Below are positions 40,508 through 62,250 of a stretch of 64,000 nt of DNA, piece after piece. Location of the stretch: NCBI RefSeq assembly GCF_020567705.1, contig NZ_JAJDJU010000003.1:62001-126000 (forward strand), read 5' to 3'. The notes beneath the pieces were generated by a model. It saw nothing but the letters and a program-made list of their open reading frames with translations. It made no database searches and was not told the origin of the DNA. Origin of the DNA: Acidocella sp. KAb 2-4 (GTDB taxonomy: Bacteria > Pseudomonadota > Alphaproteobacteria > Acetobacterales > Acetobacteraceae). The translations under genes were made by a program, and so were the position numbers. Each line of letters opens with the position of its first letter. Positions within the stretch are counted from its first letter, which is position 1.

Positions 40508-41281
40508 TCAGGCCCCCACGGTAAACGACACCGTGCCCAGATTCTGGAACGCGGTGCGGATGTGCTCGCCAACGCTGAGCGAATGCGCGGCGGTGGCGCC
40601 ACCAGCAAGTACGATATCGCCCGGCATCAGGCTCTCGCCGGCGCGGCCGATCTGGCGGGCGGCCGAGACCAGCGAGCGGATCGGGTTGCCCAGGATGGCG
40701 GCGGTGCTGCCAACCTGCACGGCGCGGCCGTTCACTTCCATGACGATGCCGAGATTGGACACGTCCGTGTCCGGCTTCGCCCACGCGCCCACATAGAAGC
40801 CCGAGGAGGAGGAGTTGTCGGCGATCACGTCGGGCAGCGAGAACTTGAAGTTCTTGTAGCGGCTGTCGATGATCTCCAGCGCCGGGGCGACGGCTTCCAC
40901 CGCCGCCAGCGCCTCGGCCGCCGACACATCGCCCGCCAGCGGCTTGCCGATGATGTAGGCAATCTCCGGCTCGACGCGCGGGTGCACATAGCGCTGGTGG
41001 GAGAGCACGCCGCCCTCCTCCAGGCGCATGGCGTCGGTCAGGCGGCCCCAGATCACCTCGGACACGCCCACCTGCTGCATCTTGGCGCGCGAGGTGAGGC
41101 CCATCTTGTAGCCTGCCCGGCGCTCGCCGCGCGCCCAGCGGCGCTGCACGTTAAGCAGCTGGATCGCATACGCGTCCTCGATCGTCAGATCTGGGTGCGT
41201 CTCGATTAGCTGGGTTGCCTCGGTGGCGTTGCGGGCGGCATCGTCCAGCATAGCCGCCAGGACGGAAAGGTTCGCGCTCAT
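40508..41281 (-). CDS. dmpH: 4-oxalocrotonate decarboxylase
   Basis: A 257-aa member of the hydratase/decarboxylase (FAH-related) family. It decarboxylates 2-oxo-3-hexenedioate to 2-hydroxypenta-2,4-dienoate in the dehydrogenase branch of the pathway. [42 protein letters not shown] and [13 protein letters not shown] match DmpH/XylI, while the related hydratase in the same operon has [11 protein letters not shown]. Metal ligands are the two Glu of VEPE and the Glu in PALEI. Overlaps the aldolase gene by 4 bp. Confidence 0.92.
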
Positions 41282-42312
41282 GCGGCTTCTCCACGCTGTT
41301 TAAGGATGTCGAGGGCGACGTCGATGATCATATCCTCTTGCCCGCCGACCATGCGGCGGCGGCCCAGCTCGGCCAGGATATCACGGGTATCGACGCCGTA
41401 GGTCTTGGAGGCGTTCTCGGCGTGGCGCAGGAAGGACGAGTACACGCCCGCATAGCCGAGGCTGAGCGACTCGCGGTCCACGCGCACCGGGCGGTCCTGC
41501 AGCGGGCGGACGAGGTCGTCAGCCGCGTCCATCAGCATGAACAGATCACAGCCGCTCTCGATGCCGTAGCGGTCGAGCACCGCGATCAGCGCCTCCAGCG
41601 GGGCGTTGCCCGCACCCGCGCCCATGCCCGCCAGCGAGGCGTCCACGCGCACCGCGCCGGCCTTGATGCCAGCCACGGCGTTGGCCACGCCCAGCGTCAG
41701 GTTGTGGTGGGTATGCACGCCGATCTCGGTCTCCGGCTTCAGCGCCGCGCGCACCGCGCTCACGCGCTCGGCATATTGCTCGGGCAGCAGGGCGCCGGCG
41801 GAATCGGTCACATAGACGCACTCGGCGCCGTAGGACTCCATCAGCTTGGCCTGCTCCACCAGCTTCTCGACTGGCGCCATGTGCGCCATCATCAGGAAGC
41901 CGACCGTGTCCATGCCCAGGCCGCGGGCCGCCTCGATATGCTGCTTCGAGACATCCGCCTCGGTGCAGTGCGTGGCGATGCGCACCGAGCGCGCGCCCGC
42001 CTCATAGGCGATCTTCAGGTCGTGCACGGTGCCGATGCCCGGCAGCAGCAGGATGGTCGGGATGGCGTGCGTGCACACGCTGGCCACGGCGGCGATCCAC
42101 TCGGCGTCGTCATGCGCGCCGAAGCCGTAGTTGAAGGTAGAGCCGGTCAGACCGTCGCCATGCGTGATCTCGATGGCGTCGACCTTCGCGGCGTCCAGCG
42201 CGCGGGCGATCGCCGTCACCGTATCCAGCGAATATTGGTGGCGGATCGAGTGCATGCCGTCACGCAGCGTGACGTCCTGCACATACAGCTTGTTCTTGTT
42301 CGGACGTGCCAT
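41278..42312 (-). CDS. dmpG: 4-hydroxy-2-oxovalerate aldolase
   Basis: A 344-aa DRE-TIM metallolyase that splits 4-hydroxy-2-oxovalerate into pyruvate and acetaldehyde. The start [22 protein letters not shown] gives the DREG-like metal motif (TLRDGMH); [34 protein letters not shown] and [18 protein letters not shown] follow. In this family it forms a channelled complex with the acylating aldehyde dehydrogenase, encoded directly upstream with a 1-bp gap. The operon order fits. Confidence 0.95.
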
Positions 42313-42313
42313 G

Positions 42314-43255
42314 TTATGCAGCCTCCTTGAGCAGTTCGCGCGCCGCCCAGTGATCGGCGGTGATCAGCGCGGCCGAGGTCATGATGTCGAGATTGCCGGC
42401 ATAGGCGGGCAGGTAATGGGCCGCGCCCTCGACCTCGAGCAGGATCGTGGTCTTCAGACCGGTGCAGAAGCCGATGCCGGGAATGCGCACCGGCGCGTTG
42501 TCGCCGATATTCTCGAACTGCACCTTCTGCTTCAGGCGGTAGCCGGGCACGTAGGCCTGCACGGTCTTCTCCATCTCCAGCACCGAGGCTTCGATCGCCT
42601 CGCGCGAGCCGCCCTGCGACAGCACGAACACGGTGTCGCGCATGATCAGTGGCGGTTCGGCCGGGTTGAGGATGATGATCGCCTTGCCGCGCTCAGCGCC
42701 GCCGAGCTTCTCGATCGCGTGCGAGGTGGTCTCGGTGAACTCGTCGATATTGGCGCGCGTGCCAGGGCCGGCGGATTTCGAGGAGATCGAGGCGACGATC
42801 TCGCCATAGACCACCCGCTCCACCGCGCGCTTCACGGCGTAAACCATCGGAATTGTGGCCTGGCCGCCGCAGGTGACCATGTTCACGTTCGGCTCGCTGA
42901 TGTTAGCGTCGCCGTTGATCGCGGGGATGGTGAACGGGCCGATGGCGGCGGGGGTGAGGTCGATCACCTTCTTGCCGTCAGCCTGCAGGATCGCGTTGTT
43001 CTTGATATGGGCGCCGGCCGAGGTCGCGTCGAACACCACCTTGATGTCGGCATAGTTCGGCAGCTTGCGCAGCCCCTCGATGCCCTCATGCGTCACCGGC
43101 ACGCCCAGGCGCGCGGCGCGCGCCAAGCCATCCGAGTTCGGGTCGATGCCGACCATCGCGCCCATCTCCAAATTCTTGGAGTTGCGCATGATCTTGATCA
43201 TCAGGTCGGTGCCAATATTGCCCGAGCCAATGATCGCAGCTTTGATCTTTGCCAT
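42314..43255 (-). CDS. dmpF: Acetaldehyde dehydrogenase (acylating)
   Basis: A 313-aa enzyme converting acetaldehyde and CoA to acetyl-CoA with NAD+. The NAD motif [18 protein letters not shown], the substrate block [14 protein letters not shown], the catalytic Cys in [18 protein letters not shown] and the C-terminal [17 protein letters not shown] match DmpF/MhpF. It lies between dmpE (3 bp) and dmpG (1 bp), and probably forms the aldolase-dehydrogenase complex that keeps acetaldehyde from escaping. Confidence 0.95.
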
Positions 43256-43258
43256 GAT

Positions 43259-44056
43259 TTACTCCTTTGCAAAGGCCGCGCGCACCGCGCCCAGGCCTTC
43301 GATACGAATGTCGAACACATCACCGGGCTGCACCGAGACCATCGGGCCCAGCGCGCCGGAGAGGATGGTGTCGCCCGCCAGTAGGGGACGGCCCAGACGG
43401 GCCATCACCTTGGCCAGCCACAGCGCCGCGTTGAGCGGCGAGCCCAGGCAGGCCGCGCCAGCGCCGACCGACACCGGCTCGCCCGCTTTTTCCATCACCA
43501 TGCCGCACATGCGCGGGTCGAAATCGGTCAGCCGCACCGGGCGCGAGCCCAGCACATAGAGGCCGGACGAGGCGTTGTCGGCGATGGTGTCGGTGATGCG
43601 GATATCCCAGTTCGCGACGCGCGAACCGACGATCTCGACCGCCGGCACGGCGTATTCGACGGCGCGGAACAGATCCGCCGCCGTCAACTCCGGCTCGGCC
43701 AGGTCGCGCCCGAGCACGAAGGCGATCTCCGCCTCTACTTTCGGCTGCAGCACGTCGGAGAGCGCCACTTCTTCGGCGTCGCCGCGCGCCATGTCGGCGA
43801 ATAGCATGCCGTAATCCGGCTGGCCAACGCCGAGCTGGCGCTGCACGGCCAGCGAGGTCAGGCCGATCTTGCGTCCGACCAAGCGCCGCCCGGCATCGAG
43901 CGCGCGCTGCGTGTTGATCGCCTGCACCGCGTAGGCGGCCTCGACATCGCCTTCCGCCAGCAGTGTGCGGATCGGGGTGGAGGGCGTGCCGCTGCGCGCT
44001 GCCTCATGCAGCGCGTCGGCGGCTTTTTGGATGGCTTCGGGTGTACTCTGGGTCAT
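43259..44056 (-). CDS. dmpE: 2-hydroxypenta-2,4-dienoate hydratase
   Basis: A 265-aa hydratase that adds water to 2-hydroxypentadienoate to give 4-hydroxy-2-oxovalerate. [47 protein letters not shown] and [11 protein letters not shown] identify the MhpD/DmpE branch rather than the decarboxylase. It opens the dmpEFGHID block, since an iclR gene in the opposite direction separates it from the dmpQB-glcG-dmpC block. A promoter for this block must therefore lie in the 188 bp before the iclR start. Confidence 0.92.
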
Positions 44057-44225
44057 ACGGGTACCTTACGGCTTGTTGCGGCAGTGGCGGCGAATCCGTG
44101 AGCCACTGGGCAAAAGCGCTGCTCGGGTTGAAGATGCGGGTTTCCTGGGGCGTCTTCTTGGTAGCGGTTTGCCCAAGCCTGTTTACGCCCCCAGCGGCGG
44201 AATTTGCAATTTACGATGTCATTGG

Positions 44226-44245
44226 TTTTCCATATGGTGAGAAAA
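44226..44245. promoter_or_regulatory. Inverted repeat over the iclR start region
   Basis: TTTTC (44226-44230) and GAAAA (44241-44245) flank a central CCATATGG-containing core (44230-44237), ending at the iclR start codon and in the iclR/dmpE intergenic region. It could be an operator for autoregulation. The arms are short, so the call is weak. Confidence 0.35.
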
Positions 44246-44979
44246 TGGAGGCGAGTGAAGGACAGGGCGCCAGCGCCGTCGAGAAGGGCATCGAATTGTT
44301 TCTGGCGGTGCTCGATGCGGGCGGCAGCGCGCCATTGTCCGAGATCGCGCGCCGGGCGGGCGTGCCGGTCTCCACGGCGCATCGTCTGGTGGCGGCATAT
44401 GTGCGGGCCGGGCTTTTGGCGCGCGCGGGGCGCGGGCGTTACGCGGCGGGCGCCAGGCTGGCAAGGGGGGAAGAGCGCGCGGCCGTGATCGAGGCCAGCC
44501 GTCCGGTGCTGCGCAGACTGGCTCTGGATCATGGCGTGATCGCGCATCTGGGCGTATTCGAGGACGACATGGTCACCTATCTGGTGAAGGAACGCGGGGC
44601 CGGGCCAGATATCTGGACGCGGGAAACCAATCAGCTTGAAGGCTACAGCTCGGCCATCGGCAAGGTGCTGCTCGCCTATTTGAGCGAGGCCGCGCAGAGC
44701 GCCTATCTCGCCAATGGGCCGTTTGTGCCTTTTACTCGCAAGACGATCACCGATCCGGCGGTGCTCGCCGCTGAGCTGCAAATGGTCCGCGAACGGGGTT
44801 ATGCGGTGGACGAGGCCGAGGTCGACGACAATCTTTTTTGCCTGGCGGTGCCAGTGCGGCGGCAGGGCGGGGTGGAGTATGCCATTTCGGTCTCCTCCCG
44901 CTCTGCGGAGTTGATGAGACTGGCGCTGCTGCCGCATCTGCAGAATTGCGCGGCGCGGATCAGCGCCAGTCTTCGGTAA
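44245..44979 (+). CDS. IclR family transcriptional regulator inside the meta-cleavage cluster
   Basis: A 244-aa regulator. The N-terminal winged helix-turn-helix (residues ~8-65) reads ASAVEKGIELFLAVLDAGGSAPLSEIARRAGVPVSTAHRLVAAYV; the C-terminal effector domain has YSSAIGKVLLAYLSEAAQ and ERGYAVDEAEVDDNLFCLAVPVRRQGGVEYAISVS. The ATG at 44245 precedes the conserved HTH; longer frames upstream are not conserved. It is encoded opposite to dmpE and dmpC on both sides. IclR proteins commonly sense aromatic acids, so a role in dmpEFGHID or dmpC control is likely but unproven. Confidence 0.88.
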   Translation: MEASEGQGASAVEKGIELFLAVLDAGGSAPLSEIARRAGVPVSTAHRLVAAYVRAGLLARAGRGRYAAGARLARGEERAAVIEASRPVLRRLALDHGVIAHLGVFEDDMVTYLVKERGAGPDIWTRETNQLEGYSSAIGKVLLAYLSEAAQSAYLANGPFVPFTRKTITDPAVLAAELQMVRERGYAVDEAEVDDNLFCLAVPVRRQGGVEYAISVSSRSAELMRLALLPHLQNCAARISASLR

Positions 44980-44989
44980 GGTCTGGCGC

Positions 44990-46498
44990 TTAGAGTTTCA
45001 CGCAGACATTGGTCATTTCGGTGTAGAACTCCAGCGAGTGCACGCCGCCCTCACGCCCGATGCCCGAGGCCTTGGCGCCGCCGAAGGCGGTGCGCAGGTC
45101 GCGCAGGAACCAGGAATTCACCCAGCAAATGCCGACCTCCAGCTTGGAGGCGACGCGGTGGGCGCGCGAGACATTCTCCGTCCATACCGCCGCGGCCAAG
45201 CCATACGGGGTGTTGTTGGCGAGGTGGATGACCTCCTCCTCGGTGTCGAACGGGCGGATATGGCAGCACGGGCCAAAGATCTCCTCGGTCACCACCGGGT
45301 GATCGTCCGCGAGGCCGGTCCAGATGGTCGGCTGCACCCAGGAACCGCCGGCCAGATCGGCGGGCATGTCGGGCACGCCGCCGCCGGTGACGACCGTGGC
45401 GCCGCCCTCGACGGCCTTGGCGTAGTAGGAGAGCACCTTCTTGCGGTGGGTCTCATGGATGAGCGGGCCCATGCCGGTGGCGGGGTCCTCGGGGCGGCCG
45501 AGCTTCATGGCCTCGGCGCCGGCCTTCAGGCGGGCGACGAATTCATCGAAAATCGGGCGCTGCACGTACACACGCTCTGTACCCAGGCAGACCTGGCCGC
45601 AATTGGCGAAGGCCGAACGCATGGTGCCCTCGATCGCCTTCTCCATATCGCAATCAGCGAACACGATGCCGGGGTTCTTGCCGCCCAGCTCCAGCGAGAC
45701 GGGACGGATGCCATGCGAGGCGGCAAGCATGATCTGCTCACCCGACTTGGTGGAGCCGGTGAAGGTCACGCCGTTGACGCCCGGGTGCTGGGTGAGGAAC
45801 TGGCCGGCCGAGTTGCCGCCGAAGCCGTGGACGACGTTATACACGCCCTTGGGCACGCCAACCTTGTTCATCACCTCGCCGAGCAGCGTGGCGGTGAGCG
45901 GGGTGGATTCGGAGGGCTTGACCACCACGGTATTGCCGAGCGCCAGCGCCGGGCCGACCTTCCAGGTCATCAGCAGCAGCGGCAGGTTCCAGGGCGAGAT
46001 CACGGCGATCACGCCGCGCGGGCGGCGCAGCGCGTAGTTCAGCGCGCCCTTGCCGTCTGGGGTGGCCATCGGGAAGGTCTCGGTGGAGACGGTCTTCACC
46101 ACGTCCGTGAACATGGTGAAGTTGGCGGCGCCGCGCGGAATGTCGATATGCGAGGCGAGCGACATCGGCTTGCCGGTGTCCAGGCACTCGGCCTCCAGGA
46201 AGTCGTCGAAGCGGTTGTTGATCTCGGCGGCGACGGCGGCGAGCATGTTGGTGCGCTCGACCACGGTGAGCTTGCCCCACGGGCCGTCCAGCGCGGCGCG
46301 CGCGGCCTTCACCGCGGCATCCACCTCGGCCTGGCCGGCCTCGGGAACGGCGCCGATGCGCGAGCCGTCGATCGGGCAAATATTGTCGTAGCTCTTGCCG
46401 CTCGTGCCCTGGGTGAACTCGCCGTTGATGAAATGCGCGGCGTCGCGGCGGGCGGGGCTCTCAGCCAGCGAGCGGCGCGGATGTGATGGAGCGTTCAT
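44990..46498 (-). CDS. dmpC: 2-hydroxymuconic semialdehyde dehydrogenase
   Basis: A 502-aa ALDH-superfamily enzyme oxidising 2-hydroxymuconic semialdehyde to 2-hydroxymuconate (the oxalocrotonate branch). ISPWNLPLLLMTWKVGPALALGNTVVVKPSESTP, the Glu in LELGGKNPGIVF and the catalytic Cys in FANCGQVCLGTERVYVQ are intact, with ELEFYTEMTNVCVKL at the end. The ATG at 46498 has GAGGA 7 nt upstream. It converges with iclR, 10 bp between stops, and follows the GlcG-like gene by 124 bp, so it can share the transcript from the dmpQ promoter. Confidence 0.92.
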   Translation of the reverse strand: MNAPSHPRRSLAESPARRDAAHFINGEFTQGTSGKSYDNICPIDGSRIGAVPEAGQAEVDAAVKAARAALDGPWGKLTVVERTNMLAAVAAEINNRFDDFLEAECLDTGKPMSLASHIDIPRGAANFTMFTDVVKTVSTETFPMATPDGKGALNYALRRPRGVIAVISPWNLPLLLMTWKVGPALALGNTVVVKPSESTPLTATLLGEVMNKVGVPKGVYNVVHGFGGNSAGQFLTQHPGVNGVTFTGSTKSGEQIMLAASHGIRPVSLELGGKNPGIVFADCDMEKAIEGTMRSAFANCGQVCLGTERVYVQRPIFDEFVARLKAGAEAMKLGRPEDPATGMGPLIHETHRKKVLSYYAKAVEGGATVVTGGGVPDMPADLAGGSWVQPTIWTGLADDHPVVTEEIFGPCCHIRPFDTEEEVIHLANNTPYGLAAAVWTENVSRAHRVASKLEVGICWVNSWFLRDLRTAFGGAKASGIGREGGVHSLEFYTEMTNVCVKL

Positions 46499-46622
46499 GT
46501 TGCTATCCTCGAGTGAGTGGCAAAAAAGAAAAAACCATGCCCCAGCGCGTAACGCCGGAAGCGGAGCCGAAGCCGGATGGTTGTGGCGTTGGACGCGGCC
46601 GCAACGCCAGCGGCGGAAAACT

Positions 46623-47051
46623 TTAAGGCGCGAGGCCGAGCGCGGCGAGACCGGCGGCGGCGCAAGCGCGGTCGTCATCCTCAGAGCCGCCGGACACGCC
46701 GATGCCGCCGATCACGGTGCCGTTCTGCCTGACAGGCATGCCGCCGCCAAACAGCACGACATTGGGGCGGGAGGCGATGCCGTCCAGCAGCACCTGGCTG
46801 TGGCTCAGGCCGGAAGCGAGTTGATCTGTGCTGGCGCCGAAGATCGCGGCGGTCCAGGCTTTATCGCGGGCGATGTCGATCGACGCCACGAAGGCGCCGT
46901 CGCCGCGCAGGCAGGCCAGGAGATGCCCGCCGGCATCGACCACCGCGGCCACCACGGGCACGTTGCGCGCCTTCGCGGTGTCCTGCGCCGCGAGGACGGC
47001 CTTCAGCGCCGCCTCGGCGGTAATGGTGGGGATGCTGCGGGAAATGCTCAT
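46623..47051 (-). CDS. GlcG/HbpS family protein (DUF336) of the meta-cleavage operon
   Basis: A 142-aa cytosolic protein of the GlcG/HbpS-like family, some members of which bind heme, while many have no assigned function. PTITAEAALKAVLAAQDTAKARNVPVVAAVVDAGGHLLACLRGDGA and the C-terminal VIGGIGVSGGSEDDDRACAAAGLAALG are its conserved blocks. A homologue is often present in phenol and catechol operons, and here it sits between dmpB and dmpC, 21 bp behind the dioxygenase. It is probably expressed with them. A role in iron or dioxygenase maintenance is only a guess. Confidence 0.82.
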   Translation of the reverse strand: MSISRSIPTITAEAALKAVLAAQDTAKARNVPVVAAVVDAGGHLLACLRGDGAFVASIDIARDKAWTAAIFGASTDQLASGLSHSQVLLDGIASRPNVVLFGGGMPVRQNGTVIGGIGVSGGSEDDDRACAAAGLAALGLAP

Positions 47052-47072
47052 GACCTGCCTGCTGGTTGGGGG

Positions 47073-47993
47073 TTAGGTGACGACGGAGAGGAACGCCGCG
47101 TTCAGCTGGCGCTCATAATAGAATATACCTTTGCCGATCTGGGTTTCGTCCCAGGTGCGGGTCGGGCTGTCGGGGTAATAGGTATAACCGCCGGCGAACA
47201 CTTCGCAACGGTTGCCGGATGGATCGAAGAAATAGATCGTCTGGCCGCGGGTGATGCCGTGGCGCGTCGGCCCGATATCCACCGAGATGTCGTAGCGAGT
47301 GATGATATCGCCGGCATGGCCAACATCCGCCCAGCTTTCCAGCTCGAAGGAGACGTGGTGCAGCTTACCCGGCTCCGGGTGCTTCACGAAGGCGATGTCA
47401 TGCGCCTTCATGCCGCAGCTCATCCAGATGGCCAGCAGGCCGTCCGGCATGTCCACGCGCTCGGCGCACTTGAAGTCGAGAACCTTCTCGAAGAAGTCGA
47501 GCGTCTTCTCGATGTCCGGGCCGTAAAGCAGGCAGTGGTCCATGCGGCGCGCGCCCATGCCGTGCGGCTCCACGGTCCACACATCCGGGTTGTGGATCAT
47601 CGGCTTCGGGTCCGACAGATCGGCATGCGCGTACAGCTCGATGCGGTGGCCAGAGGAGAGGGTCCAGCCGATGCGGCGGCCGAGGCCCGGCTGCTCGCCA
47701 GCCGCGACATGGTCCACCGGGTAGCCATAGGCGATCACGCGCTTCTCAAAGGAGTCGAGATCGGCCTCGGAGGCAACCTTGAAGGCGAAAGCGTCGATGC
47801 CGGCATGATCCGCCTTGCGCAGCACCAAGCTGTGATGGTCGAACTCATCGCCGCATTTCAGGTAGACGCGGCCATCGGTGCCGGTGGTCACGTGATGCAT
47901 GCCGATGCGCTTGATGTAGTGATCGAGCGACTTCTCCATGTCCAGCACGCGCACCTGCGCAAACCCTGGACGTAAAACTCCGGTCATAGCCAT
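47073..47993 (-). CDS. dmpB: Catechol 2,3-dioxygenase, copy 1 (extradiol)
   Basis: A 306-aa two-domain vicinal-oxygen-chelate enzyme that opens catechol to 2-hydroxymuconic semialdehyde. The Fe(II) ligands are His153 (MDHCLLYG), His213 (KLHHVSFELES) and Glu264 (SGNRCEVFAGG), as in XylE. YFFDPSGNR and WDETQIGKGIFYYERQLNAAFL close the C-terminal half. The start at 47993 is supported by the paralogue at 62.3 kb, which begins with the same MAxTG-LRPGF. It follows the XylT-like ferredoxin by 2 bp and belongs to the leftward operon. Confidence 0.95.
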   Translation of the reverse strand: MAMTGVLRPGFAQVRVLDMEKSLDHYIKRIGMHHVTTGTDGRVYLKCGDEFDHHSLVLRKADHAGIDAFAFKVASEADLDSFEKRVIAYGYPVDHVAAGEQPGLGRRIGWTLSSGHRIELYAHADLSDPKPMIHNPDVWTVEPHGMGARRMDHCLLYGPDIEKTLDFFEKVLDFKCAERVDMPDGLLAIWMSCGMKAHDIAFVKHPEPGKLHHVSFELESWADVGHAGDIITRYDISVDIGPTRHGITRGQTIYFFDPSGNRCEVFAGGYTYYPDSPTRTWDETQIGKGIFYYERQLNAAFLSVVT

Positions 47994-47995
47994 TG

Positions 47996-48355
47996 TTATG
48001 CTGTCTCCTGACTTTCTGTTGCGGCCGTTTTTGCCTTTTTGACGAAATGCGGCGGCTCGATCCGCAGTTCGATGTCGGACAGAGGGTAGATGGCGCAGGA
48101 GAGAACCAGTCCCGCGGCTTCATCCGCCTCTGAAATATGGGCGCGGCTCATGGGGTCCGCCTTGAATTCGCCAGCGGTGACGCGCACCCGGCACACCCCG
48201 CAGCCGCCACGCCGGCACCCCACCGGCAGCCGGTAGGGCAGATTTTTCAACCGGCCGAATCCCTGGGCACGCTCCATCGCCACGAGCGCGCGCTCGCCCT
48301 CATAGCACGTCGCCTCGCCAGCGCCCTCGACGGTAATCTTGTGGCTTGCCGCCAT
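47996..48355 (-). CDS. dmpQ: [2Fe-2S] ferredoxin that reactivates catechol 2,3-dioxygenase (XylT/DmpQ type)
   Basis: A 119-aa plant-type ferredoxin with cluster ligands Cys47, Cys52, Cys55 (GCRRGGCGVC) and Cys87 (VLSC). In the TOL pathway XylT re-reduces the dioxygenase iron after inactivation by substituted catechols. It is the first gene of the leftward operon, ending 2 bp before dmpB, so electrons for this repair are made in step. Its C-terminal tail (KKAKTAATESQETA) is a low-complexity extension. The assignment is firm on domain and context. Confidence 0.9.
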   Translation of the reverse strand: MAASHKITVEGAGEATCYEGERALVAMERAQGFGRLKNLPYRLPVGCRRGGCGVCRVRVTAGEFKADPMSRAHISEADEAAGLVLSCAIYPLSDIELRIEPPHFVKKAKTAATESQETA

Positions 48356-48483: not shown

Positions 48484-48540
48484 CTTATCGGCGTAGTTTG
48501 TCCAGGTGTCAATAATAATTTCGAGATTTTTGGGAACTTC
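48484..48540 (-). promoter_or_regulatory. Meta-operon promoter with GntR-type operator, copy 1
   Basis: On the minus strand the 26-bp element (48540-48515, core AAAATCTCGAAATTAT) is followed by TTGACA (48512-48507), a 17-bp spacer and GATAAG (48489-48484). A 22/26-identical, oppositely oriented copy lies at 49475-49500. It would drive dmpQ and the genes after it. The -10 is imperfect. Confidence 0.7.
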
Positions 48541-48634
48541 GTGAAAACTGTAAAATTGCTGCACATGCGAAGAGTGTTGATTTTTTATGTTGCTTGCATT
48601 TAGATTTGTAAAAATCGTATTTTCCGAGGAAATG

Positions 48635-49399
48635 ATGGCGGGGCTGGCGCTGGCCGGGGCCGCAACCAAGAATATGCCTGGAGTGACCAGATTTATGGAT
48701 ACCAATGTGACGTCGGCCCCGGTCGCAGCCCCTAAAGTGGGGACCGCGCGCAGCTTGGTGGAAGCCGCGCACGAAACCATCCGCCACGAGATTCTGATCG
48801 GCGCGCTGGCGCCGGAGACCAAGCTGCGCTTCGAAATGCTGCGCAAGCGCTACGGCTTTGGCGCCAGCACGCTGCGCGAGGCGCTAACCCGGTTGGTGGG
48901 CGAGGCGCTGGTCACCTCCGAGGAACAGAAGGGCTTCAGGGTGGCGCCGGTCTCGATTGAGGATCTGGCCGATCTCACGCGCACGCGGGTTTTTCTTGAG
49001 AAAGAGGCGCTGCGCGAATCGATCCGCTGCGGCGACGATGCCTGGGAAGGGCGCGTGGTGGCGGCGTATCACCGCCTGTCCAAGACCGAGGCGCGGCTGC
49101 TGACCTCGCCGGAGATCCCGCAAGACGAGTTCGAGCTGCGCAACCGCGAATTCCACCAGGCGCTCATCAGTGCCTGTCCGTCACGCTGGTTGAATCATCT
49201 TTACGGGGTGCTGTTCCAGCAATCCGAGCGGTACCGGCGCATCTCGCTGGTCAACCGCAAGGTGTCGCGCGACGTGCACGCCGAGCACAAGGCGATCTTT
49301 GAAGCGGCGCTGGCGCGTGACGCCGACCTCGCCTGCAGGGTGGCTGGAGAGCATATCGAGCGGACGCTGTCTGTCATGTCGAAGGTGCTGGCGAGCTGA
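48635..49399 (+). CDS. GntR family (FCD domain) regulator of the phenol/catechol genes
   Basis: A 254-aa regulator. An N-terminal winged HTH (residues ~35-105) includes LVEAAHETIRHEILIGALAPETKLRFEMLRKRYGFGASTLREALTRLVGEALVTSEEQKGF, in FadR-like order; the C-terminal FCD ligand domain (residues ~110-240) has DLTRTRVFLEKEALRESI, FHQALISACPSRWLNHLYGVLFQQS and HAEHKAIFEAALARDADLACRVAGEHIERT. The start is uncertain: 48635 has GAGG 5 nt upstream, 48695 would leave a typical short tail. The gene lies between two operons whose promoters share an operator-like element, so it most likely controls both. Confidence 0.85.
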   Translation: MAGLALAGAATKNMPGVTRFMDTNVTSAPVAAPKVGTARSLVEAAHETIRHEILIGALAPETKLRFEMLRKRYGFGASTLREALTRLVGEALVTSEEQKGFRVAPVSIEDLADLTRTRVFLEKEALRESIRCGDDAWEGRVVAAYHRLSKTEARLLTSPEIPQDEFELRNREFHQALISACPSRWLNHLYGVLFQQSERYRRISLVNRKVSRDVHAEHKAIFEAALARDADLACRVAGEHIERTLSVMSKVLAS

Positions 49400-49474
49400 T
49401 GCTGATGGTGACGCGCGTGCATTGCAGCGGCGCAAAATAATCCTATCGGCTTGATCGGCGAATGTGGGTATATG

Positions 49475-49531
49475 GAAGTTTTTGAAAATCTCGAAATTAT
49501 AATTGACGTACGAGAAAAACACCCGTAGAGA
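49475..49531 (+). promoter_or_regulatory. Phenol hydroxylase promoter with GntR-type operator, copy 2
   Basis: The 26-bp element at 49475-49500 (core AAAATCTCGAAATTAT) ends 2 bp before TTGACG (49503-49508); a 17-bp spacer leads to TAGAGA (49526-49531). The same arrangement, inverted, precedes the leftward meta operon. A site just upstream of -35 suits an activator. Confidence 0.7.
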
Positions 49532-49594: not shown

Positions 49595-49885
49595 ATGGCA
49601 AGCCGGAACCCGTCAGGGGGGCGAGAGCCGGAAGGTTCTGCGGAAAGCAATTCTTCTTTCGTCCGTGTGCTGGGGACGCGCTCTGGCCGATTTGTGGAGT
49701 TTGAGTTCAGCCTGGGAGACGAGGATCTCTCGGTCGAACTGATCCTGCCGCTACAGGCTTTTAAGGAATTTTGCGAGGCACGCCACGCGACCATCCTGCC
49801 GCCGGCGGACGCCGTCGCGGCCGAGCTGGACCGGATGGCTTGGCGTGCCGGGCAGCCCGGGCTGTTGCGCCGCCCGGAGCGCTAA
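49595..49885 (+). CDS. dmpK: Phenol hydroxylase assembly protein DmpK (P0)
   Basis: A 96-aa accessory protein required in Pseudomonas CF600 for phenol hydroxylase assembly but not part of the active complex. FVRVLGTRSGRFVEFEFSLGDEDLSVELILPLQAFKEFCEAR matches the family; the C-terminal AVAAELDRMAWRAGQPGLLRRP is also typical. The N-terminal 20 residues are low complexity. AGGAGG lies 10 nt upstream. First gene of the rightward operon, downstream of the GntR-type promoter. Confidence 0.88.
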   Translation: MASRNPSGGREPEGSAESNSSFVRVLGTRSGRFVEFEFSLGDEDLSVELILPLQAFKEFCEARHATILPPADAVAAELDRMAWRAGQPGLLRRPER

Positions 49886-49952
49886 AATTTTCACCGACTG
49901 AAGCAATGACAACAAGCCGGGGCGCCGCGGGTGCTCCACGGAGAGGATACGT

Positions 49953-50945
49953 ATGACCGTACAGATTAAGACCATCGACCTTGAGCCGAAACGCAACACG
50001 TTTGCGCATGTCGCCCGCCGCCTCGGCGCGGACAAGCCTGCCTCGCGCTATCAGGAGGCCACGCTCGATGTGCAAGCCACCGAGAATTTCCATTACAAGC
50101 CGCTCTGGGAGCCGGAATACTGGCACTACGACACCCGCAAGACCGCGGTGGTGATGGCGGATTGGTACAAGCCGCTGGATCCACGGCAGTTTTATTATTC
50201 CACCTACAACATTGCCCGCGCCAACATGAACCAGGCGGCCGAGAAGAATTTCGCGTTCGTGGATGAGCGCGGGCTGCTGACCAAGGCCTCCGCGCAGGCG
50301 CAGGCGGCCATCCGCCGCGGGCTGCTGCCGGTGCGCCATCTGCATTGGGGCAGCAACATGAACATGGCTGAGATGACCCAGCGTGGCTATGGCACGGCCG
50401 TCACCGCGCCGTGCATCTTCTCGGCGGGCGATCACCTCGGCATGGCGCAGTATGTCAGCCGCATCGGCTTGCTGCTCGACGGCCAGACCGGCGCGACGCT
50501 GGATGAGGCCAAGCAGACCTGGCTGAACGATGCCGCCTGGCAGGAGATCCGCCGCCTGATCGAGGATACCTTCGTCGAGCGCGACTGGTTCCATCTGTTC
50601 GTGGCGCAAGCGCTGGGCGTGAACGGTGTGCTCCTGCCATTCATGTACAAGAAGGCTGAAGCGGCCTGGACCGACGCGGCGATGCCGATCGCGCTGCTGA
50701 CCGAGTTCATGAATGACTGGCACGCCGAGGAAGCGCGGTGGAGCGATTCCGTGATCAAGACGGTCGCCGCTGAATCCGACGCCAACAAGGCGCTGGTTTC
50801 TGAGTGGGCCAAGACCTGGATTGCGCGCGCGACCGCGGCGGCCAAGCCGCTCTCCGCCGCGCTGCTGAATGATGACGGCGCCGCCGCCGCCGCCGCCGGG
50901 GCCGAGGCCCTGAAGAAGGCCGCCAGCCTCGGCCTCGCGGTTTAA
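49953..50945 (+). CDS. dmpL: Phenol hydroxylase P1 oxygenase component (beta subunit)
   Basis: A 330-aa ferritin-like subunit of the soluble diiron monooxygenase hydroxylase (DmpLNO). The start TVQIKTIDLEPKRNTFAHVARRLGADKPASRYQEATLDVQ and WEPEYWHYDTRKT, DPRQFYYSTYNIARANMNQAAEKNF match P1. The diiron site itself is in DmpN; this chain is structural. It belongs to the dmpKLMNOP operon, 67 bp behind dmpK and 15 bp before dmpM. Confidence 0.95.
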   Translation: MTVQIKTIDLEPKRNTFAHVARRLGADKPASRYQEATLDVQATENFHYKPLWEPEYWHYDTRKTAVVMADWYKPLDPRQFYYSTYNIARANMNQAAEKNFAFVDERGLLTKASAQAQAAIRRGLLPVRHLHWGSNMNMAEMTQRGYGTAVTAPCIFSAGDHLGMAQYVSRIGLLLDGQTGATLDEAKQTWLNDAAWQEIRRLIEDTFVERDWFHLFVAQALGVNGVLLPFMYKKAEAAWTDAAMPIALLTEFMNDWHAEEARWSDSVIKTVAAESDANKALVSEWAKTWIARATAAAKPLSAALLNDDGAAAAAAGAEALKKAASLGLAV

Positions 50946-50960
50946 GGAAAGGAAACGGAA

Positions 50961-51233
50961 ATGGCTCAAGTCGCCTCCATCACCCTCATGCAAAATGACG
51001 ACGCCCGCCCCATCATCGATGCGATCATGGCGGACAATCCGGGCGTGCGTGTGCTGAACATGCCGGGCGCCGTCAAGCTCGATTGCGACGGCAAGATCAC
51101 GGTCAACCGCGCTTCCGTCGAAGAGCGCCTCGGGCGCCCGTGGGATCCGCAGGAGATCCAGCTCGTGCTGGTCTCCATGGCCGGTAACCTCGACGAGGAT
51201 GATGATCATTTCACGCTGAGCTGGCGCCACTGA
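50961..51233 (+). CDS. dmpM: Phenol hydroxylase P2 regulatory protein
   Basis: A 90-aa cofactor-free effector protein that binds the hydroxylase and is needed for turnover. It begins AQVASITLMQNDDARPIIDAIMADNPGVRVLNMPGAVKLDCDGK and ends DDDHFTLSWRH, typical of the MmoB/DmpM family. AAGGAAACGGAA precedes the ATG, and the gene lies between dmpL and dmpN in the operon. Size and motif pattern are as in CF600. Confidence 0.95.
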   Translation: MAQVASITLMQNDDARPIIDAIMADNPGVRVLNMPGAVKLDCDGKITVNRASVEERLGRPWDPQEIQLVLVSMAGNLDEDDDHFTLSWRH

Positions 51234-51258
51234 GAATTAAACGTAGAGGAAACAAAAC

Positions 51259-52776
51259 ATGAGCGGTACCAAGAAGCTTGCTTTACGGCAGCGTTATGAA
51301 TACCTGACGCGCGGGCTGGACTGGGAAACAACCTACCAGCCGATGGACAAGGTGTTCCCCTACGACTCCTTCGAAGGGATCAAGATCAAGGATTGGTCGG
51401 CCTGGGAAGATCCGTTCCGCCTGACCATGGATTCCTACTGGAAGTTCCAGGCCGAGAAGGAGCGCAAGCTCTACGCCGTGCTGGACAGCTTCGCGCAGAA
51501 TAATGGCCAGACCACGATCTCGGATGGCCGTTATGCAAACGTTCTGAAGCTGTTCCTCACCGGCATCTCGCCTGAGGAGTATCAGGCGCATCGCGGCTTC
51601 GCCTTCACGGGCCGCCATCTGCGCGGTGCGGGTGCGCGCGTCGCGGCGCAGATGCAGTCGCTCGACGAGCTGCGCCACCTGCAGACTCAGGTGCATACGA
51701 TCAGCCACTACAACAAGTATTTCGATGGCATCGCCGAGTGGCCGCTGATGCATGACCGCGTGTGGTACCTCTCGGTGCCGAAATCGTTCTTCGACGACGC
51801 GCGCTCAGCCGGGCCGTTCGAGTTTATGATCGCGATCGGCTTCGCGTTTGAATACTTGCTGACCAACTTGTTGTTCGTGCCCTTCATGTCCGGCGCCGCC
51901 TATAACGGTGACATGTCGACCGTGACCTTCGGCTTCTCCGCGCAGTCGGACGAGAGCCGCCACATGACGCTGGGCATTGAGATTATCAAGTTCCTGCTTG
52001 AGCAGCACCCGGACAACCTGCCGATCGTGCAGAAATGGGTAGACAAGTGGTTCTGGCGCGGCCATCGCCTGCTGGGCATCGTGGCCATGATGATGGACTA
52101 CATGCTGCCCAAGAAGGTGATGAGCTGGAAGGAAGCCTGGGACATCTACTTCGTCGAAGCCGGTGGCGCGCTGTTCCAGGATCTCGGCCGTTATGGTCTG
52201 AAGATGCCAAAATATGCTGATATCGCCACGGCGGAAGCCGAGCATATCTCGCACCAGAATTGGGCGGTCTTCTACCAGTACACCCATGCCGCGGCGTTCC
52301 ACACCTGGATGCCGGATAATGAGCATCTGGATTGGCTGTCCGAGAAATATCCCAACACGTTCGATAAATATTATCGTCCGCGCTGGGAGATGTGGGCGAA
52401 GATGGAGAAGGAAGGCAAGCGCTTCTACAACCCGGCGCTGCCGCAGCTTTGCCAGACCTGCCAGATCCCCATGGCGTATACCGAGCCCGGCGATCCGACC
52501 ACGATCTGCTTCCGCTCCACGCAGTACAAGGGTGACACGTATCACTTCTGCTCGGATGGCTGTAAGGACATTTTCTGTGATGAGCCCGAGAAGTTTGTGC
52601 AGGCCTGGCTGCCTGTGCATCAGATCTTCCAGGGCAATTGCGGTGGCGCCACGGTGCCAGATGTTCTGAAGTGGTATCATATGAATGTCGGTGCCGATAA
52701 CATGGATTATGTCGGCTCGCCGGATGAGAAGCTGTGGAATGAATGGCACGCGGAAAAGCTCCGTCAGGCCGGTTAA
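51259..52776 (+). CDS. dmpN: Phenol hydroxylase P3 oxygenase component (alpha subunit, diiron)
   Basis: A 505-aa catalytic subunit that hydroxylates phenol to catechol. The carboxylate-bridged diiron site uses Glu and His in LDELRHLQTQVH and DESRHMTLGIE (E-x2-H pairs), with further Glu in the four-helix bundle. FQAEKERKLYAVLDSFAQ and the C-terminal zinc-like Cys cluster LCQTCQIPMAYTEPG / CSDGCKDIFCDEPEKF complete the P3 pattern. The gene follows dmpM by 25 bp. Confidence 0.96.
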   Translation: MSGTKKLALRQRYEYLTRGLDWETTYQPMDKVFPYDSFEGIKIKDWSAWEDPFRLTMDSYWKFQAEKERKLYAVLDSFAQNNGQTTISDGRYANVLKLFLTGISPEEYQAHRGFAFTGRHLRGAGARVAAQMQSLDELRHLQTQVHTISHYNKYFDGIAEWPLMHDRVWYLSVPKSFFDDARSAGPFEFMIAIGFAFEYLLTNLLFVPFMSGAAYNGDMSTVTFGFSAQSDESRHMTLGIEIIKFLLEQHPDNLPIVQKWVDKWFWRGHRLLGIVAMMMDYMLPKKVMSWKEAWDIYFVEAGGALFQDLGRYGLKMPKYADIATAEAEHISHQNWAVFYQYTHAAAFHTWMPDNEHLDWLSEKYPNTFDKYYRPRWEMWAKMEKEGKRFYNPALPQLCQTCQIPMAYTEPGDPTTICFRSTQYKGDTYHFCSDGCKDIFCDEPEKFVQAWLPVHQIFQGNCGGATVPDVLKWYHMNVGADNMDYVGSPDEKLWNEWHAEKLRQAG

Positions 52777-52832
52777 AGAAATAAGAACACGCATGGCACC
52801 GCGCGTGCCATGCGTCTCCCGAGGAGGAATGA

Positions 52833-53195
52833 ATGTCCATTATTGCGCTTGCGCCTGATTACGAATCCAAGGTCGAGCCCCGCGACCCGCTGAAGAATTT
52901 CCATGGCAATATGCTGGTCTATGTGCACTGGGAGGAGCATCTCTCCTTCTGCTCGGCCATCGCCTTTCCGCTGCCGCCAGTCATGCCGTTCGGCGCGCTG
53001 GTTAGCGAGGTGATCGCCCCGCATTACGCCGCGCACCCTGACGCCAGCAAGATCGACTGGTCGAAGGCGGAATGGATGATCGACGGCGAGAAGAAGACTC
53101 CTGACTTCGATGCTTCGCTTGAAGCAAACGGCATGCACCACAAGTCGCTGGTGCGGTTCTGGACACCCGGATTGTCCGGCGTGGCCTTTTCCTAA
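52833..53195 (+). CDS. dmpO: Phenol hydroxylase P4 oxygenase component (gamma subunit)
   Basis: A 120-aa small subunit of the hydroxylase core. It starts SIIALAPDYESKVEPRDPLKNFHGNMLVYVHWEEHLSFCSAIAFPLPP, the typical P4 opening, and contains LVSEVIAPHYAAHPD. GAGGAGG lies about 5 nt upstream of the ATG. Position between dmpN (56 bp) and dmpP (18 bp) follows the canonical order. Confidence 0.94.
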   Translation: MSIIALAPDYESKVEPRDPLKNFHGNMLVYVHWEEHLSFCSAIAFPLPPVMPFGALVSEVIAPHYAAHPDASKIDWSKAEWMIDGEKKTPDFDASLEANGMHHKSLVRFWTPGLSGVAFS

Positions 53196-53213
53196 CAGAG
53201 ACGGAATTCGCTT

Positions 53214-54275
53214 ATGAGCTACCAGCTGACCGTTGAACCGGTGGGCGAGACCATCGAGGTCGAGGAGGGGCAGACCATCCTCGACGCTTGCTTGCGCCAG
53301 GGCATTTATCTCCCTTATGCCTGTGGCCATGGTCTTTGCGGCACCTGCAAGGTCGAAGTCGTCGATGGCGAAGTCGATCACGCCGATGCCTCCAGCTTTG
53401 CGCTGATGGATTTTGAGCGCAACGAGGGCAAGACACTGGCTTGTTCAGCGCGGCTTAAAAGCGATGCCACGATCGAGGCGGATATCGATGAGGACCCGGA
53501 TCAGCGCCGGATTCCGATTCAGGATTTCGCCGTGACGGTCGAAAAGCTCGACAACCTGACGCATGATGTGAAAGGGGTGCGCCTGCGCCTGGAAGGCAAG
53601 AGCATCGACTTCCAGGCTGGGCAGTATGTCAACGTTACGCTCCCGGGCGTTGATGGCACGCGCGCCTTCTCCATCGCCAACCCGCCTTCGGAAAATGGCG
53701 TTGTCGATCTGCAGATCCGGCTGCTGCCGGGCGGCAAGGGCACAACCTACATCCATCAGGTGATGAAGGAAGGTGATAAGCTGAATATTTCTGGCCCCTA
53801 TGGCCGTTTCTTCGTGCGCAAATCACGTGGCGGGCCGTTGCTGTTCCTCGCGGGCGGTACTGGCGTGTCGAGCCCGCGCTCGATGATCATCGACCTTCTG
53901 GCCGAGAATTATGCGGAGCCGATCACGCTGATCCACGGTGTCCGCGCCAGGGCTGATCTCTACGGTAATGATGAGTTCGAGGCGCTGTCCAAAAAGCATC
54001 CGAACTTCCGTTACGTTCCCGCCTTATCCTCGGAGCCCGAGGATTCTGAGTGGAGTGGCGCGCGCGGCTTCGTGCATGATGTCGCCGTGCAGCTTTACGA
54101 TGGATTGTTTGAAGGTCTGACCGCGTATCTTTGCGGTCCGCCGGTAATGATCGAGGCCTGCGTGAACACGCTCATGCGTGGTCGGCTGTTTGAAAAGCAC
54201 ATCTTGACGGAGCGCTTCCTCACCGCCAATGATGAAAAGAAATCAACGAGGAGTCCTTTGTTCAAAACGCTATAA
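53214..54275 (+). CDS. dmpP: Phenol hydroxylase P5 reductase (FAD, [2Fe-2S])
   Basis: A 353-aa reductase carrying electrons from NADH through FAD and a plant-type cluster to the hydroxylase. Cluster ligands Cys37, Cys42, Cys45 and Cys77 (ACGHGLCGTCKVEV, LACSA). The FAD domain has RAFSIAN and GQYVNVTLPG, the NAD domain LLFLAGGTGVSSPRSMIIDLL and AYLCGPPVMIEACVNTLM. The last gene of the dmpKLMNOP operon; an inverted repeat at 54300-54317 follows. Confidence 0.95.
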   Translation: MSYQLTVEPVGETIEVEEGQTILDACLRQGIYLPYACGHGLCGTCKVEVVDGEVDHADASSFALMDFERNEGKTLACSARLKSDATIEADIDEDPDQRRIPIQDFAVTVEKLDNLTHDVKGVRLRLEGKSIDFQAGQYVNVTLPGVDGTRAFSIANPPSENGVVDLQIRLLPGGKGTTYIHQVMKEGDKLNISGPYGRFFVRKSRGGPLLFLAGGTGVSSPRSMIIDLLAENYAEPITLIHGVRARADLYGNDEFEALSKKHPNFRYVPALSSEPEDSEWSGARGFVHDVAVQLYDGLFEGLTAYLCGPPVMIEACVNTLMRGRLFEKHILTERFLTANDEKKSTRSPLFKTL

Positions 54276-57266: not shown

Positions 57267-57296
57267 CATATCTATAAGGTATGGAAATATATATAC
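57267..57296. promoter_or_regulatory. LysR-type dyads upstream of benA
   Basis: CATA-N9-TATG at 57267-57283 has the T-N11-A form of LysR boxes, and GTAT-N10-ATAC overlaps it at 57279-57296. They lie about 105-135 bp before benA in the intergenic region shared with the aldolase gene. BenM-type control by the LysR gene at 61.2 kb is inferred. Confidence 0.5.
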
Positions 57297-57400
57297 TCAG
57301 TCTTGGACTCGTCGGTGTCGAAAAACTATCCACAAGCCGGTTCCGGGGAGTAAGCTACGCCCGGCCTTCGCGCAACAAAAGCAACCAAGGAAACGCAGCT

Positions 57401-58756
57401 ATGCTGGATGATGTTTCTCCTTCACCTCTTGGCGTCGTGCTCGAGGACGACCCCGCCACCGGACATTACCGCTGCCGCCGTGACATGTTCACTGATCCTG
57501 AGTTGTTCGAGCTCGAGATGCAGTACATCTTCGAGGGCAACTGGGTGTTCCTGGCCCATGAGAGCCAGATCCCGAACAATAACGACTATTTCACCACCTA
57601 TATCGGCCGCCAGCCGATCATCATCGCCCGCAACCGCCAGGGCGAGCTGAATGCCTTCATCAACGCCTGCGCGCATCGCGGCGTGACCCTTTGTCGGCGC
57701 AAGCGTGGCAACCAGGGCACTTACACCTGCCCGTTCCATGGCTGGACGTTCAACAACTCCGGCAAGCTGCTGAAGGTGAAGGACCCCGAGAACGCTGGCT
57801 ATCCCGATAATTTCAACACCGATGGCTCGCACAACCTGACCAAGGTGGCGCGTTTCGAGAGCTATCGCGGCTTCCTGTTCGGCAGCGTGAACCCCGACGT
57901 GAAGCCGCTGGCCGAGCATCTGGGCGAGGCCGCGAAGATCATCGACATGATTGTCGACCAGTCGCCGGAAGGGCTGGAAGTGCTCGAAGGCGCCTCCACC
58001 TATGTTTATGACGGTAACTGGAAGTTGCAGGCCGAGAACGGCGCCGATGGCTATCACGTCACCGCGACGCACTGGAACTACGCTGCCACCACCGGCCGCC
58101 GTAAGGAGCTGGAGCGTGATGACGGCATCCGCGCGATGTCGGCTGGCGGCTGGGCCCGCACCGGCGGTGGTTCGTACTCTTTTGAGCATGGCCACATGCT
58201 GCTCTGGACCAACTGGGCCAACCCGGAAGACCGCCCCAACTGGTCGCGCCGCGAGGAATACGCCGCCAAGTTCGGTCAGGCGATGGCTGACTGGATGGTG
58301 CTGCGCTCGCGCAATTTGTGCCTCTACCCCAATGTTTACCTCATGGACCAGTTCAGCTCGCAGATCCGCATCCTGCGTCCGCTGGCGGTCGATAAGACCG
58401 AGGTGACAATCTACTGCATCGCGCCGAAGGGGGAGAGCCCCGAGGCCCGCGCCCACCGCATCCGCCAGTACGAGGATTTCTTCAACGCCTCGGGCATGGC
58501 GACCCCGGACGATCTGGAAGAGTTCCGCGCCTCGCAGGAAGGCTTCGGCGGCCGCGCGGCGGCGTGGAACGATCTCTCCCGCGGCGCCAAGCACTGGGTC
58601 AAGGGTCCGGACGAGACGGCCAACCTGATCGGGCTGAAGCCGCTGCTGAGCGGCGTACGCACCGAGGATGAGGGGCTGTATGTCGAGCAGCACCGCTACT
58701 GGCTGGATGTTATGAACACGGCGCTGGACGGCGAGTTCGAAGCCGACGCCGAGTAA
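57401..58756 (+). CDS. benA: Benzoate 1,2-dioxygenase large subunit
   Basis: A 451-aa Rieske non-heme oxygenase alpha subunit. Rieske ligands Cys90, His92, Cys110 and His113 (CAHRGVTLC ... TCPFHGW); mononuclear iron His219 and His224 with bridging Asp216 ([14 protein letters not shown]). The length and C-terminal pattern fit BenA, which turns benzoate into the cis-1,2-diol. Other substrates (toluate, anthranilate, halobenzoate) are possible. AAGGAAA lies 8 nt before the ATG. It heads benABCD. Confidence 0.9.
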
Positions 58757-58836
58757 CCCCTCTCACCTTCATCACCCACCGTGCGGCGCCGTGCATCGCG
58801 GCCCGCCGGGGGCAATAAACATGGGATAAGAAACAT

Positions 58837-59322
58837 ATGATCACGATCGAACAGGTGCAGGGGTTCCTGTACAAGGAAGCGCGTCTTCTCGATGACCGGG
58901 ACTGGGATGCCTGGCTGGAGCTGTACGCGCCGAATGTCGAGTTCTGGATGCCGTCGTGGAAAGAGGATGACTCGCTGGTCACCGATCCGCAGCGGCAGAT
59001 CTCGCTGATCTACTATCCGAACCGCGGCGGTCTGGAAGATCGTGTCTTCCGCATCCGCACCGAGCGCTCCTCCGCCTCGATGCCTGAGCCGCGCACCTCG
59101 CATAACGTCTCCAATGTCGAGATTCTGGAGCAGGCCGGCAACCAGGTGAAGCTGCGCTTCAACTGGTTCACGCTGAGCCATCGCTACAAGATGACCGACA
59201 CCTTCTTCGGCGCCTCGTTCTATACACTCGATATCTCTGGACCAGAGCCGCGGATTACGAATAAGAAAGTCGTGCTGAAGAACGACTATATTCATCAAGT
59301 CGTCGACATTTATCATATCTGA
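58837..59322 (+). CDS. benB: Benzoate 1,2-dioxygenase small subunit
   Basis: A 161-aa NTF2-like beta subunit that forms the alpha3beta3 oxygenase with BenA. ITIEQVQGFLYKEARLLDDRDWDAWLELYAPNVEFWMPSW and SLIYYPNRGGLEDRVFRIRTERSSASMPEPRTSHNVSNVEI are the family blocks. It is 80 bp downstream of benA and 19 bp before benC, in the canonical order. Its role is structural. Confidence 0.93.
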   Translation: MITIEQVQGFLYKEARLLDDRDWDAWLELYAPNVEFWMPSWKEDDSLVTDPQRQISLIYYPNRGGLEDRVFRIRTERSSASMPEPRTSHNVSNVEILEQAGNQVKLRFNWFTLSHRYKMTDTFFGASFYTLDISGPEPRITNKKVVLKNDYIHQVVDIYHI

Positions 59323-59341
59323 CCTGGGGAGGGAGGGTATC

Positions 59342-60361
59342 ATGGCATTCAGGGTCGCCCTGAACTTTGAGGATGGCGTAACACGCTTCATCAATTGTCC
59401 GGCTACCGACACGGTGGCCGACGCATCCTATCGCGCCGGGATCAACATCCCGATCGATTGCCGCGATGGCGCCTGCGGCACTTGCAAGGTCTTCTGTGAG
59501 TCCGGCAAGTACGATGGCGGATCGTATATCGAGGATGCGCTGACCGATGAAGAGGCGGCGAAGGGCTTTGCCCTGACCTGCCAGATGCGGCCGAAATCGG
59601 ATCTCGTGTTGCGCGTGCCGGTCCCTTCCTCCGCCTGCAAAACCGGGCCGGTGAAGCAGAAAGCGGTGATGGAGGTGGTCAACAAGCTGTCGCCGACCAC
59701 CATCTCCTTTACGCTCAAGCTCACCGAGCCCGTGAAATTTCTGCCGGGGCAGTATGTGAATATCGAGGTGCCGGGCACGGGCCAGTACCGCGCCTATTCC
59801 TTCAGCTCCGCCCCTGGCGCGGATATCGCCAGCTTCCTGATCCGCAACATTCCAGGCGGGTTGATGAGCACGTTCATCGCGAGCCAGGCCAAGCCGGGCG
59901 ACGAGGTGAATTTCATCGGTCCCTCGGGCAGCTTCTTCCTGCGCGAGATCGCCCGTCCGGTGCTGATGCTCGCGGGAGGCACGGGGCTGGCGCCGATGCT
60001 CTCGATGCTGGCCTATATGGAGGCGAACCCGCCCGCGCAGAAGGTGCATCTGGTTTATGGCGTGACCAACGACGAAGATCTGGTCGAAACCGCGGCGCTC
60101 GACGAATTCGCGGCCAAGATTCCGGGCTTCACCTGGGAGGCTTGCATCGCCAACCCCGCCAGCGCCTATCCGCGCAAGGGCTATGTGACGCAGCATTTGC
60201 TGCCTGAGCATATCAATGGCGGCGATGTGGACGTGTATCTGTGCGGCCCGCCGGCAATGGTGGAAGCCGTGCGCAAATACTTCACCGATACGGGCGTGAC
60301 GCCGGTGAGCTTCCATTACGAGAAGTTCAACCCCAGCTCCCCGTCGGACAAGGCGGCATGA
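59342..60361 (+). CDS. benC: Benzoate dioxygenase electron transfer component
   Basis: A 339-aa reductase with an N-terminal plant-type [2Fe-2S] domain (Cys40, Cys45, Cys48 in CRDGACGTCKVFC; Cys80), then FAD (GQYVNIEVPGTGQYRAYSFSSAP) and NAD (PVLMLAGGTGLAPMLSMLAYM) domains. It passes NADH electrons to the BenAB Rieske centre. The C terminus reads DVYLCGPPAMVEAVRKYF. It overlaps benD by 4 bp. Assignment follows from domain order and operon position. Confidence 0.94.
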   Translation: MAFRVALNFEDGVTRFINCPATDTVADASYRAGINIPIDCRDGACGTCKVFCESGKYDGGSYIEDALTDEEAAKGFALTCQMRPKSDLVLRVPVPSSACKTGPVKQKAVMEVVNKLSPTTISFTLKLTEPVKFLPGQYVNIEVPGTGQYRAYSFSSAPGADIASFLIRNIPGGLMSTFIASQAKPGDEVNFIGPSGSFFLREIARPVLMLAGGTGLAPMLSMLAYMEANPPAQKVHLVYGVTNDEDLVETAALDEFAAKIPGFTWEACIANPASAYPRKGYVTQHLLPEHINGGDVDVYLCGPPAMVEAVRKYFTDTGVTPVSFHYEKFNPSSPSDKAA

Positions 60362-61146: not shown

Positions 61147-61153
61147 GACGCGC

Positions 61154-62074: not shown

Positions 62075-62201
62075 CAGATACCTCCCGGCCACAGGCGGAT
62101 TTTTCCTGATCCGAAGCGGCATTTTTAGAGATATGCGCGGGATTCGTGGTCTGGCAAGCGTTGCAAATTTGGTCACACTAGGTGAGAATGCTTTTCATTA
62201 T

Positions 62202-62222: not shown

Positions 62223-62250
62223 CTGATTTTAACTGGGGAGTAAGTAAACA

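Follow-up and report, generated by a model that had tools for sequence, protein, structure and literature searches.

In Acidocella sp. KAb 2-4, a gene for a GntR/FCD regulator lies between two divergently transcribed operons for phenol hydroxylation and meta-cleavage, and the sequence of the locus points to a real, conserved regulatory design of the AphS/BphS kind. The best overall explanation, to which we would give a probability of roughly 0.55, is that an operator-bound dimer acts at two sigma-70 promoters and that its repression is lifted by a ring-fission product. An AphS/BphS-type GntR/FCD dimer would bind one 14-bp operator at each of the divergently directed sigma-70 promoters and, when free of ligand, would repress both operons by occupying the zone of sigma region 4 and the alpha-CTD. 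The signal for release of the dimer would be a product of ring fission, such as 2-hydroxymuconate semialdehyde or a close derivative of it, and the phenol hydroxylase and meta-cleavage operons would be switched on together. This explanation is supported by the operator-like sites, the promoter elements, their fixed geometry and conservation, and a locus in which neither aphR nor sigma-54 elements were found; within it, binding by the GntR/FCD protein, the repressor sign, and the inducer are what we infer as most likely.

The window, meaning the whole 64,000-nucleotide stretch of DNA that was analyzed, carries the regulator gene at 48695..49399 (+), encoding 234 aa. Its start was placed at the ATG at 48695 by the aligned starts of orthologs, the longest open reading frame opening at 48587. 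The initial annotation had described a GntR/FCD gene between paired elements that face the two catabolic operons; Pfam matches confirmed the former (GntR, 9.8e-14; FCD, 1.5e-20), and gene content and strands confirmed the latter. Multicomponent phenol hydroxylase genes in the order K, L, M, N, O, P occupy 49595..54275 (+), with Pfam matches to Phenol_hyd_sub, Phenol_Hydrox (twice), Phenol_monoox, and a Fer2/FAD/NAD reductase, M (50961-51233) being assigned from gene order and orthologs. Divergent from these, the meta-cleavage operon (40508..48355, -) comprises genes for a ferredoxin, catechol 2,3-dioxygenase, an HbpS-like protein, and aldehyde dehydrogenase, a 294-aa open reading frame that has no Pfam match, and genes for a hydratase, acetaldehyde dehydrogenase, aldolase, and a second FAA-hydrolase-family enzyme. 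Elsewhere in the window, the region 57281-63171 contains benABC-like genes for benzoate dioxygenase, together with a LysR gene (61154-62176, -) and a second gene for catechol 2,3-dioxygenase (62251-63171).

With its GntR helix-turn-helix and FCD domains, its predicted operator, and its linkage to phenol hydroxylase and meta-cleavage genes, the regulator has several features of the AphS/BphS group. It is 44-47% identical to the AphS, BphS, and BphR1 proteins and 59-86% identical to members of its own alphaproteobacterial clade, the closest named match being that of Acidocella aromatica DSM 27026 (86%). Among 38 genomes from the genus of the window, 10, including the one that contains the window, encode the regulator at an identity of at least 80%, and orthologs at ~58-64% are found in Xanthobacter and in several alphaproteobacterial genomes besides. 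In the protein tree, its own 15-row clade received support of 96/89, and the 30-row set comprising this clade and AphS, BphS, and BphR1 received weak support (84/73). The regulator shares with the AphS, BphS, and BphR1 proteins a conserved recognition-helix region, GASTLREAL, and a conserved N-x3-H...H...H set, the latter being typical of a metal-binding FCD domain. With regard to autoregulation of gntR, a search for a conserved promoter facing this gene defined none.

The regulator gene is flanked by two inverted copies of a 26-bp element, copy 1 (GAAGTTCCCAAAAATCTCGAAATTAT) at 48515-48540 (-) and copy 2 (GAAGTTTTTGAAAATCTCGAAATTAT) at 49475-49500 (+). Recomputation reproduced the identity at 22 of 26 bases that had originally been noted, and the similarity of the two arms reaches 33 nt at 28/33. 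The TTGACR hexamer said to lie 2 bp past each copy, followed 17 bp on by a -10-like hexamer, was likewise found on both sides, as TTGACA (48512-48507, -) and GATAAG (48489-48484, -) past copy 1 and as TTGACG (49503-49508, +) and TAGAGA (49526-49531, +) past copy 2. The elements are rare: with up to three mismatches, AATCTCGAAATTATNATTGAC has two matches in the window and none in 100 shuffles, and the exact 16-mer core occurs at only two sites in the 3.1-Mb assembly, both of them here, with one further site when two mismatches are permitted. The 12-mer AATNTCGANATT has three further matches in the genome, and a wider regulon there was rejected because these remaining matches look like coding sequence.

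The predicted functional part of the 26-bp element is a 14-bp imperfect palindrome, AAATCTCGAAATTA, which constitutes operator 1 at 48516..48529 (-), facing the meta-cleavage operon, and operator 2 at 49486..49499 (+), facing the phenol hydroxylase operon. It agrees at 12 of 14 positions with AAATmTCGAkATTT, the AphS/BphS operator consensus from a comparative study (PMC6449761). The proposal of a 26-bp operator therefore holds for the inner 14 bp, which are conserved across species, but much less for the outer ~10 bp, interspecies conservation being limited to the inner 14 bp, TTGAC, and the -10. Most Acidocella sites score 12/14 against the consensus and a few 11/14, and a full 14/14 is reached at the operators of orthologs from Xanthobacter, L035, and G588. 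Operator 1 has counterparts in all nine of the other Acidocella-clade loci, and operator 2 has counterparts in A. aromatica (L039:6724) and G032 (L015:2350). Given the match to the AphS/BphS motif and the conserved footprint in 15 loci, it is very probable that the adjacent GntR/FCD protein uses both elements as operators, in agreement with the earlier view of them.

Several operators per regulated region have been described for the AphS/BphS group (PMC6449761), but each promoter has a single operator in 15/15 loci of the clade. Two operators are found where phenol hydroxylase genes adjoin the far side of gntR, as in the window, A. aromatica, and G032; Acidocella loci without phenol hydroxylase have the meta-side operator only; and Xanthobacter, in which hydroxylase and dioxygenase genes form a single divergent run, has one. 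Operator count tracks operon count. At the second catechol 2,3-dioxygenase loci of genomes G007 and G020, there are two operator-like sites 75 bp apart (L125:1286 and 1361; L126:2545 and 2620) with no TTGAC at the usual distance, and these pairs may represent an extension of the regulon.

The presence of sigma-70 promoters at both operons is well supported by the sequence comparisons. All 15 clade loci (Acidocella, Xanthobacter, and others) have the order operator, 3 bp, TTGAC, 17 bp, and -10-like hexamer, and in all 15 the operator-TTGAC unit is directed away from gntR. In this test, the operator was chosen by its 14-mer alone, with TTGAC left out of the selection, and the probability that TTGAC falls at any one offset by chance is ~0.0012. 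The downstream site of A. aromatica was missed by the 14-mer-only test because it lies <30 bp from the gene end, and was found in separate searches. Adding the second site that the window, A. aromatica, and G032 each have brings the 15 loci to 18 promoters; in their alignment, for which the promoters were located using a search string that contained TTGAC and in which three (G022, G002, and G011, all Acidocella) are nearly identical, TTGAC is invariant (18/18) and the second position of the -10 is A in 18/18. Mean information in this set is 1.72 bits for the operator, 1.73 for the -35 hexamer, and 1.03 for the -10 hexamer, with 0.34 for the spacer and 0.30 downstream, and since the spacer and downstream sequence have drifted near randomness, common descent alone does not account for the conserved blocks. 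It is the invariant TTGAC, the unconserved spacer, and the constant A of the -10 that argue for sigma-70 promoters. We accordingly read TTGACA and GATAAG as the putative -35 and -10-like elements of the meta-cleavage promoter, from the position of TTGAC 3 bp past the operator and the 17-bp spacer, and TTGACG and TAGAGA as those of the phenol hydroxylase promoter, from the clade alignment; the counterpart of TAGAGA is TAGAAA in A. aromatica and two Xanthobacter loci. Counted from an assumed start 7 bp beyond the -10, the operator has its center near -45.5 and lies just ahead of the -35 hexamer. In two deeper relatives, G230 (L067) and G079 (L064), TTGAC lies 2 bp and 5 bp past the operator, respectively, rather than 3, and G230 is the tree sister of an aphR-bearing alphaproteobacterial locus, which hints at more than one change of promoter class.

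The predicted regulator-operator pair is common to this clade and its betaproteobacterial relatives, and the promoter class differs. AphS represses the phenol genes of Comamonas testosteroni TA441, as established by genetic evidence (PMC6449761, PMC6763649), and in Betaproteobacteria it is accompanied by aphR, the gene for a sigma-54 activator, usually as an aphRS operon (PMC6449761). The AphS systems of C. testosteroni and other Betaproteobacteria resemble the window in protein family, in operator consensus, in a regulator gene adjoining its targets, and in the targets themselves, phenol hydroxylase and meta-cleavage genes. They differ in possessing aphR, a UAS, a -24/-12 promoter with TGGCAC 20 bp past the operator, and in many cases an additional site close to aphR, whereas the window's clade has the regulator alone and one operator per sigma-70 promoter. 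The Achromobacter, Ideonella, Burkholderia, and G714 loci each carry a gene of the XylR/DmpR type (aphR) between the hydroxylase genes and the GntR gene, and in the Achromobacter and Ideonella annotations it immediately precedes the latter; the distance from the operator to the TGGCAC downstream of it is exactly 20 bp in these loci, and in three of the four a good -12 match comes after TGGCAC. An aphR-type gene and a perfect -24/-12 are likewise present in the alphaproteobacterium G037. Within the stretches examined, no XylR/DmpR-type gene was found at any of the 15 clade loci, and the window locus lacks the co-occurrence with aphR that characterizes AphS proper; the same search gave strong matches at five aphR-bearing loci and weaker ones, to the sigma-54 ATPase part only, in L093 and the window. 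The aphR/phenol hydroxylase intergenic regions of Betaproteobacteria contain a second inverted element, CAGGGAAAnCCCTG, beside the AphS operator (L106:5981-6009, with equivalents in L101, L107, and, less clearly, L108).

With regard to the sign of regulation, we lean toward repression relieved by a ring-fission product rather than activation, the analogy being the release of BphS by HOPDA. BphS of Acidovorax sp. KKS102, a homologous GntR/FCD protein with the same motif class, is a repressor that is relieved by the meta-cleavage product HOPDA, although it differs in controlling biphenyl genes and in having multiple sites that overlap the transcription start (PMC11448139). Homologous GntR regulators can have either sign, as BphR1 of Pseudomonas furukawaii KF707 is reported to be an activator at an aromatic operon, in this case of biphenyl genes and with a LysR partner, BphR2 (PMC10282184). 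At the BphR1 ortholog locus of P. putida KF715, no site with ≤2 mismatches to the consensus was found. The sign could not be taken from the protein tree, and this approach was rejected because BphR1 of KF715 and BphS of Polaromonas are sister proteins whose names carry opposite reported signs in other strains. G014 was also rejected as a natural experiment in gntR loss, as it retains the meta genes, has a different upstream arrangement, and encodes a 48-50% paralog. Our literature search returned no data on expression, footprints, or ligands in the clade and nothing relevant on phenol regulation in Acidocella.

A serious but less probable alternative is that the GntR/FCD protein activates transcription directly, in the class II manner, contacting sigma region 4 or the alpha-CTD at -45.5 and recruiting RNA polymerase with a pathway metabolite, in the role of AphR. 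The spacing of exactly 3 bp between operator and TTGAC in 18 promoters is the geometry expected of such an activator, the -10 hexamers are poor, so that the promoters may need help, no other activator was found at the locus, and BphR1 of KF707 provides a precedent for activation (PMC10282184). However, the -35 is near consensus, which is unusual among class II promoters, and the spacing in G230 and G079 departs from 3 bp. The initial annotation had considered the protein probably an activator given its upstream site, but this argument is weak, since the operator in the beta loci is upstream at an equally fixed distance (20 bp to TGGCAC) and AphS of TA441 is genetically a repressor. It is rather unlikely that, in this clade, both operons depend on an AphS-type GntR protein as their only direct, class II-like activator at sigma-70 promoters; were it true, the operator would be as in the beta AphS loci, and the promoter class and sign would both differ, with no AphR.

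It is improbable that the operons are driven from a sigma-54 promoter by a XylR/DmpR-type protein acting in trans, with the GntR site merely modulating. DmpR/XylR sigma-54 control is known for the same kind of enzyme operon, and the window's genome encodes rpoN and one XylR_N/V4R/sigma-54 activator, but the regulator, the UAS, and the -24/-12 of such control are all absent from the window locus. Neither intergenic region contains a -24/-12 with <3 mismatches or a DmpR-like UAS, and TTGAC-N17-A is kept in 18/18 promoters; on the former ground sigma-54 control of the window promoters was rejected, and the initial suggestion of sigma-70-like rather than sigma-54 promoters is upheld. The sole XylR-type gene of the genome adjoins a different, second multicomponent monooxygenase operon (L053; C34:104000-122000), where it lies downstream and where, by contrast, a perfect -24/-12 is present (L053:3833-3848). 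One genome would thus use both designs. A perfect sigma-54 -24/-12, TGGCACGGGCATTGCA, also occurs in the window at 36938-36923 (-), just upstream of genes for an amino-acid permease, two glutamine-synthetase-like proteins, and a P450, possibly an amine-catabolism operon, with a gene for a PAS/sigma-54 activator at 27736-29352 (-). It is also improbable that TTGAC belongs to an extended recognition sequence of the GntR protein and is not a -35 hexamer, for although it always abuts the operator in the clade, it is missing beside the same operator in the beta aphRS loci and most other relatives, flanks the near-palindrome on one side only, and has a conserved -10 position after it at a constant 17 bp.

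The GntR design had initially been presented as novel, which does not hold for GntR control of phenol operons as such, since this was already known; what differs here is that the locus lacks both aphR and a sigma-54 promoter. As far as the literature searched shows, a lone regulator at sigma-70 promoters, each with a single operator at -45.5, is undescribed. The locus is a counterexample, from outside the Betaproteobacteria, to the published claim that bacteria with AphS always have an adjacent AphR, and it offers a comparative case in which one regulator-operator pair is combined with two promoter classes at two distances, each internally fixed. It would also supply a simple one-protein switch for the phenol pathway from acidophiles.
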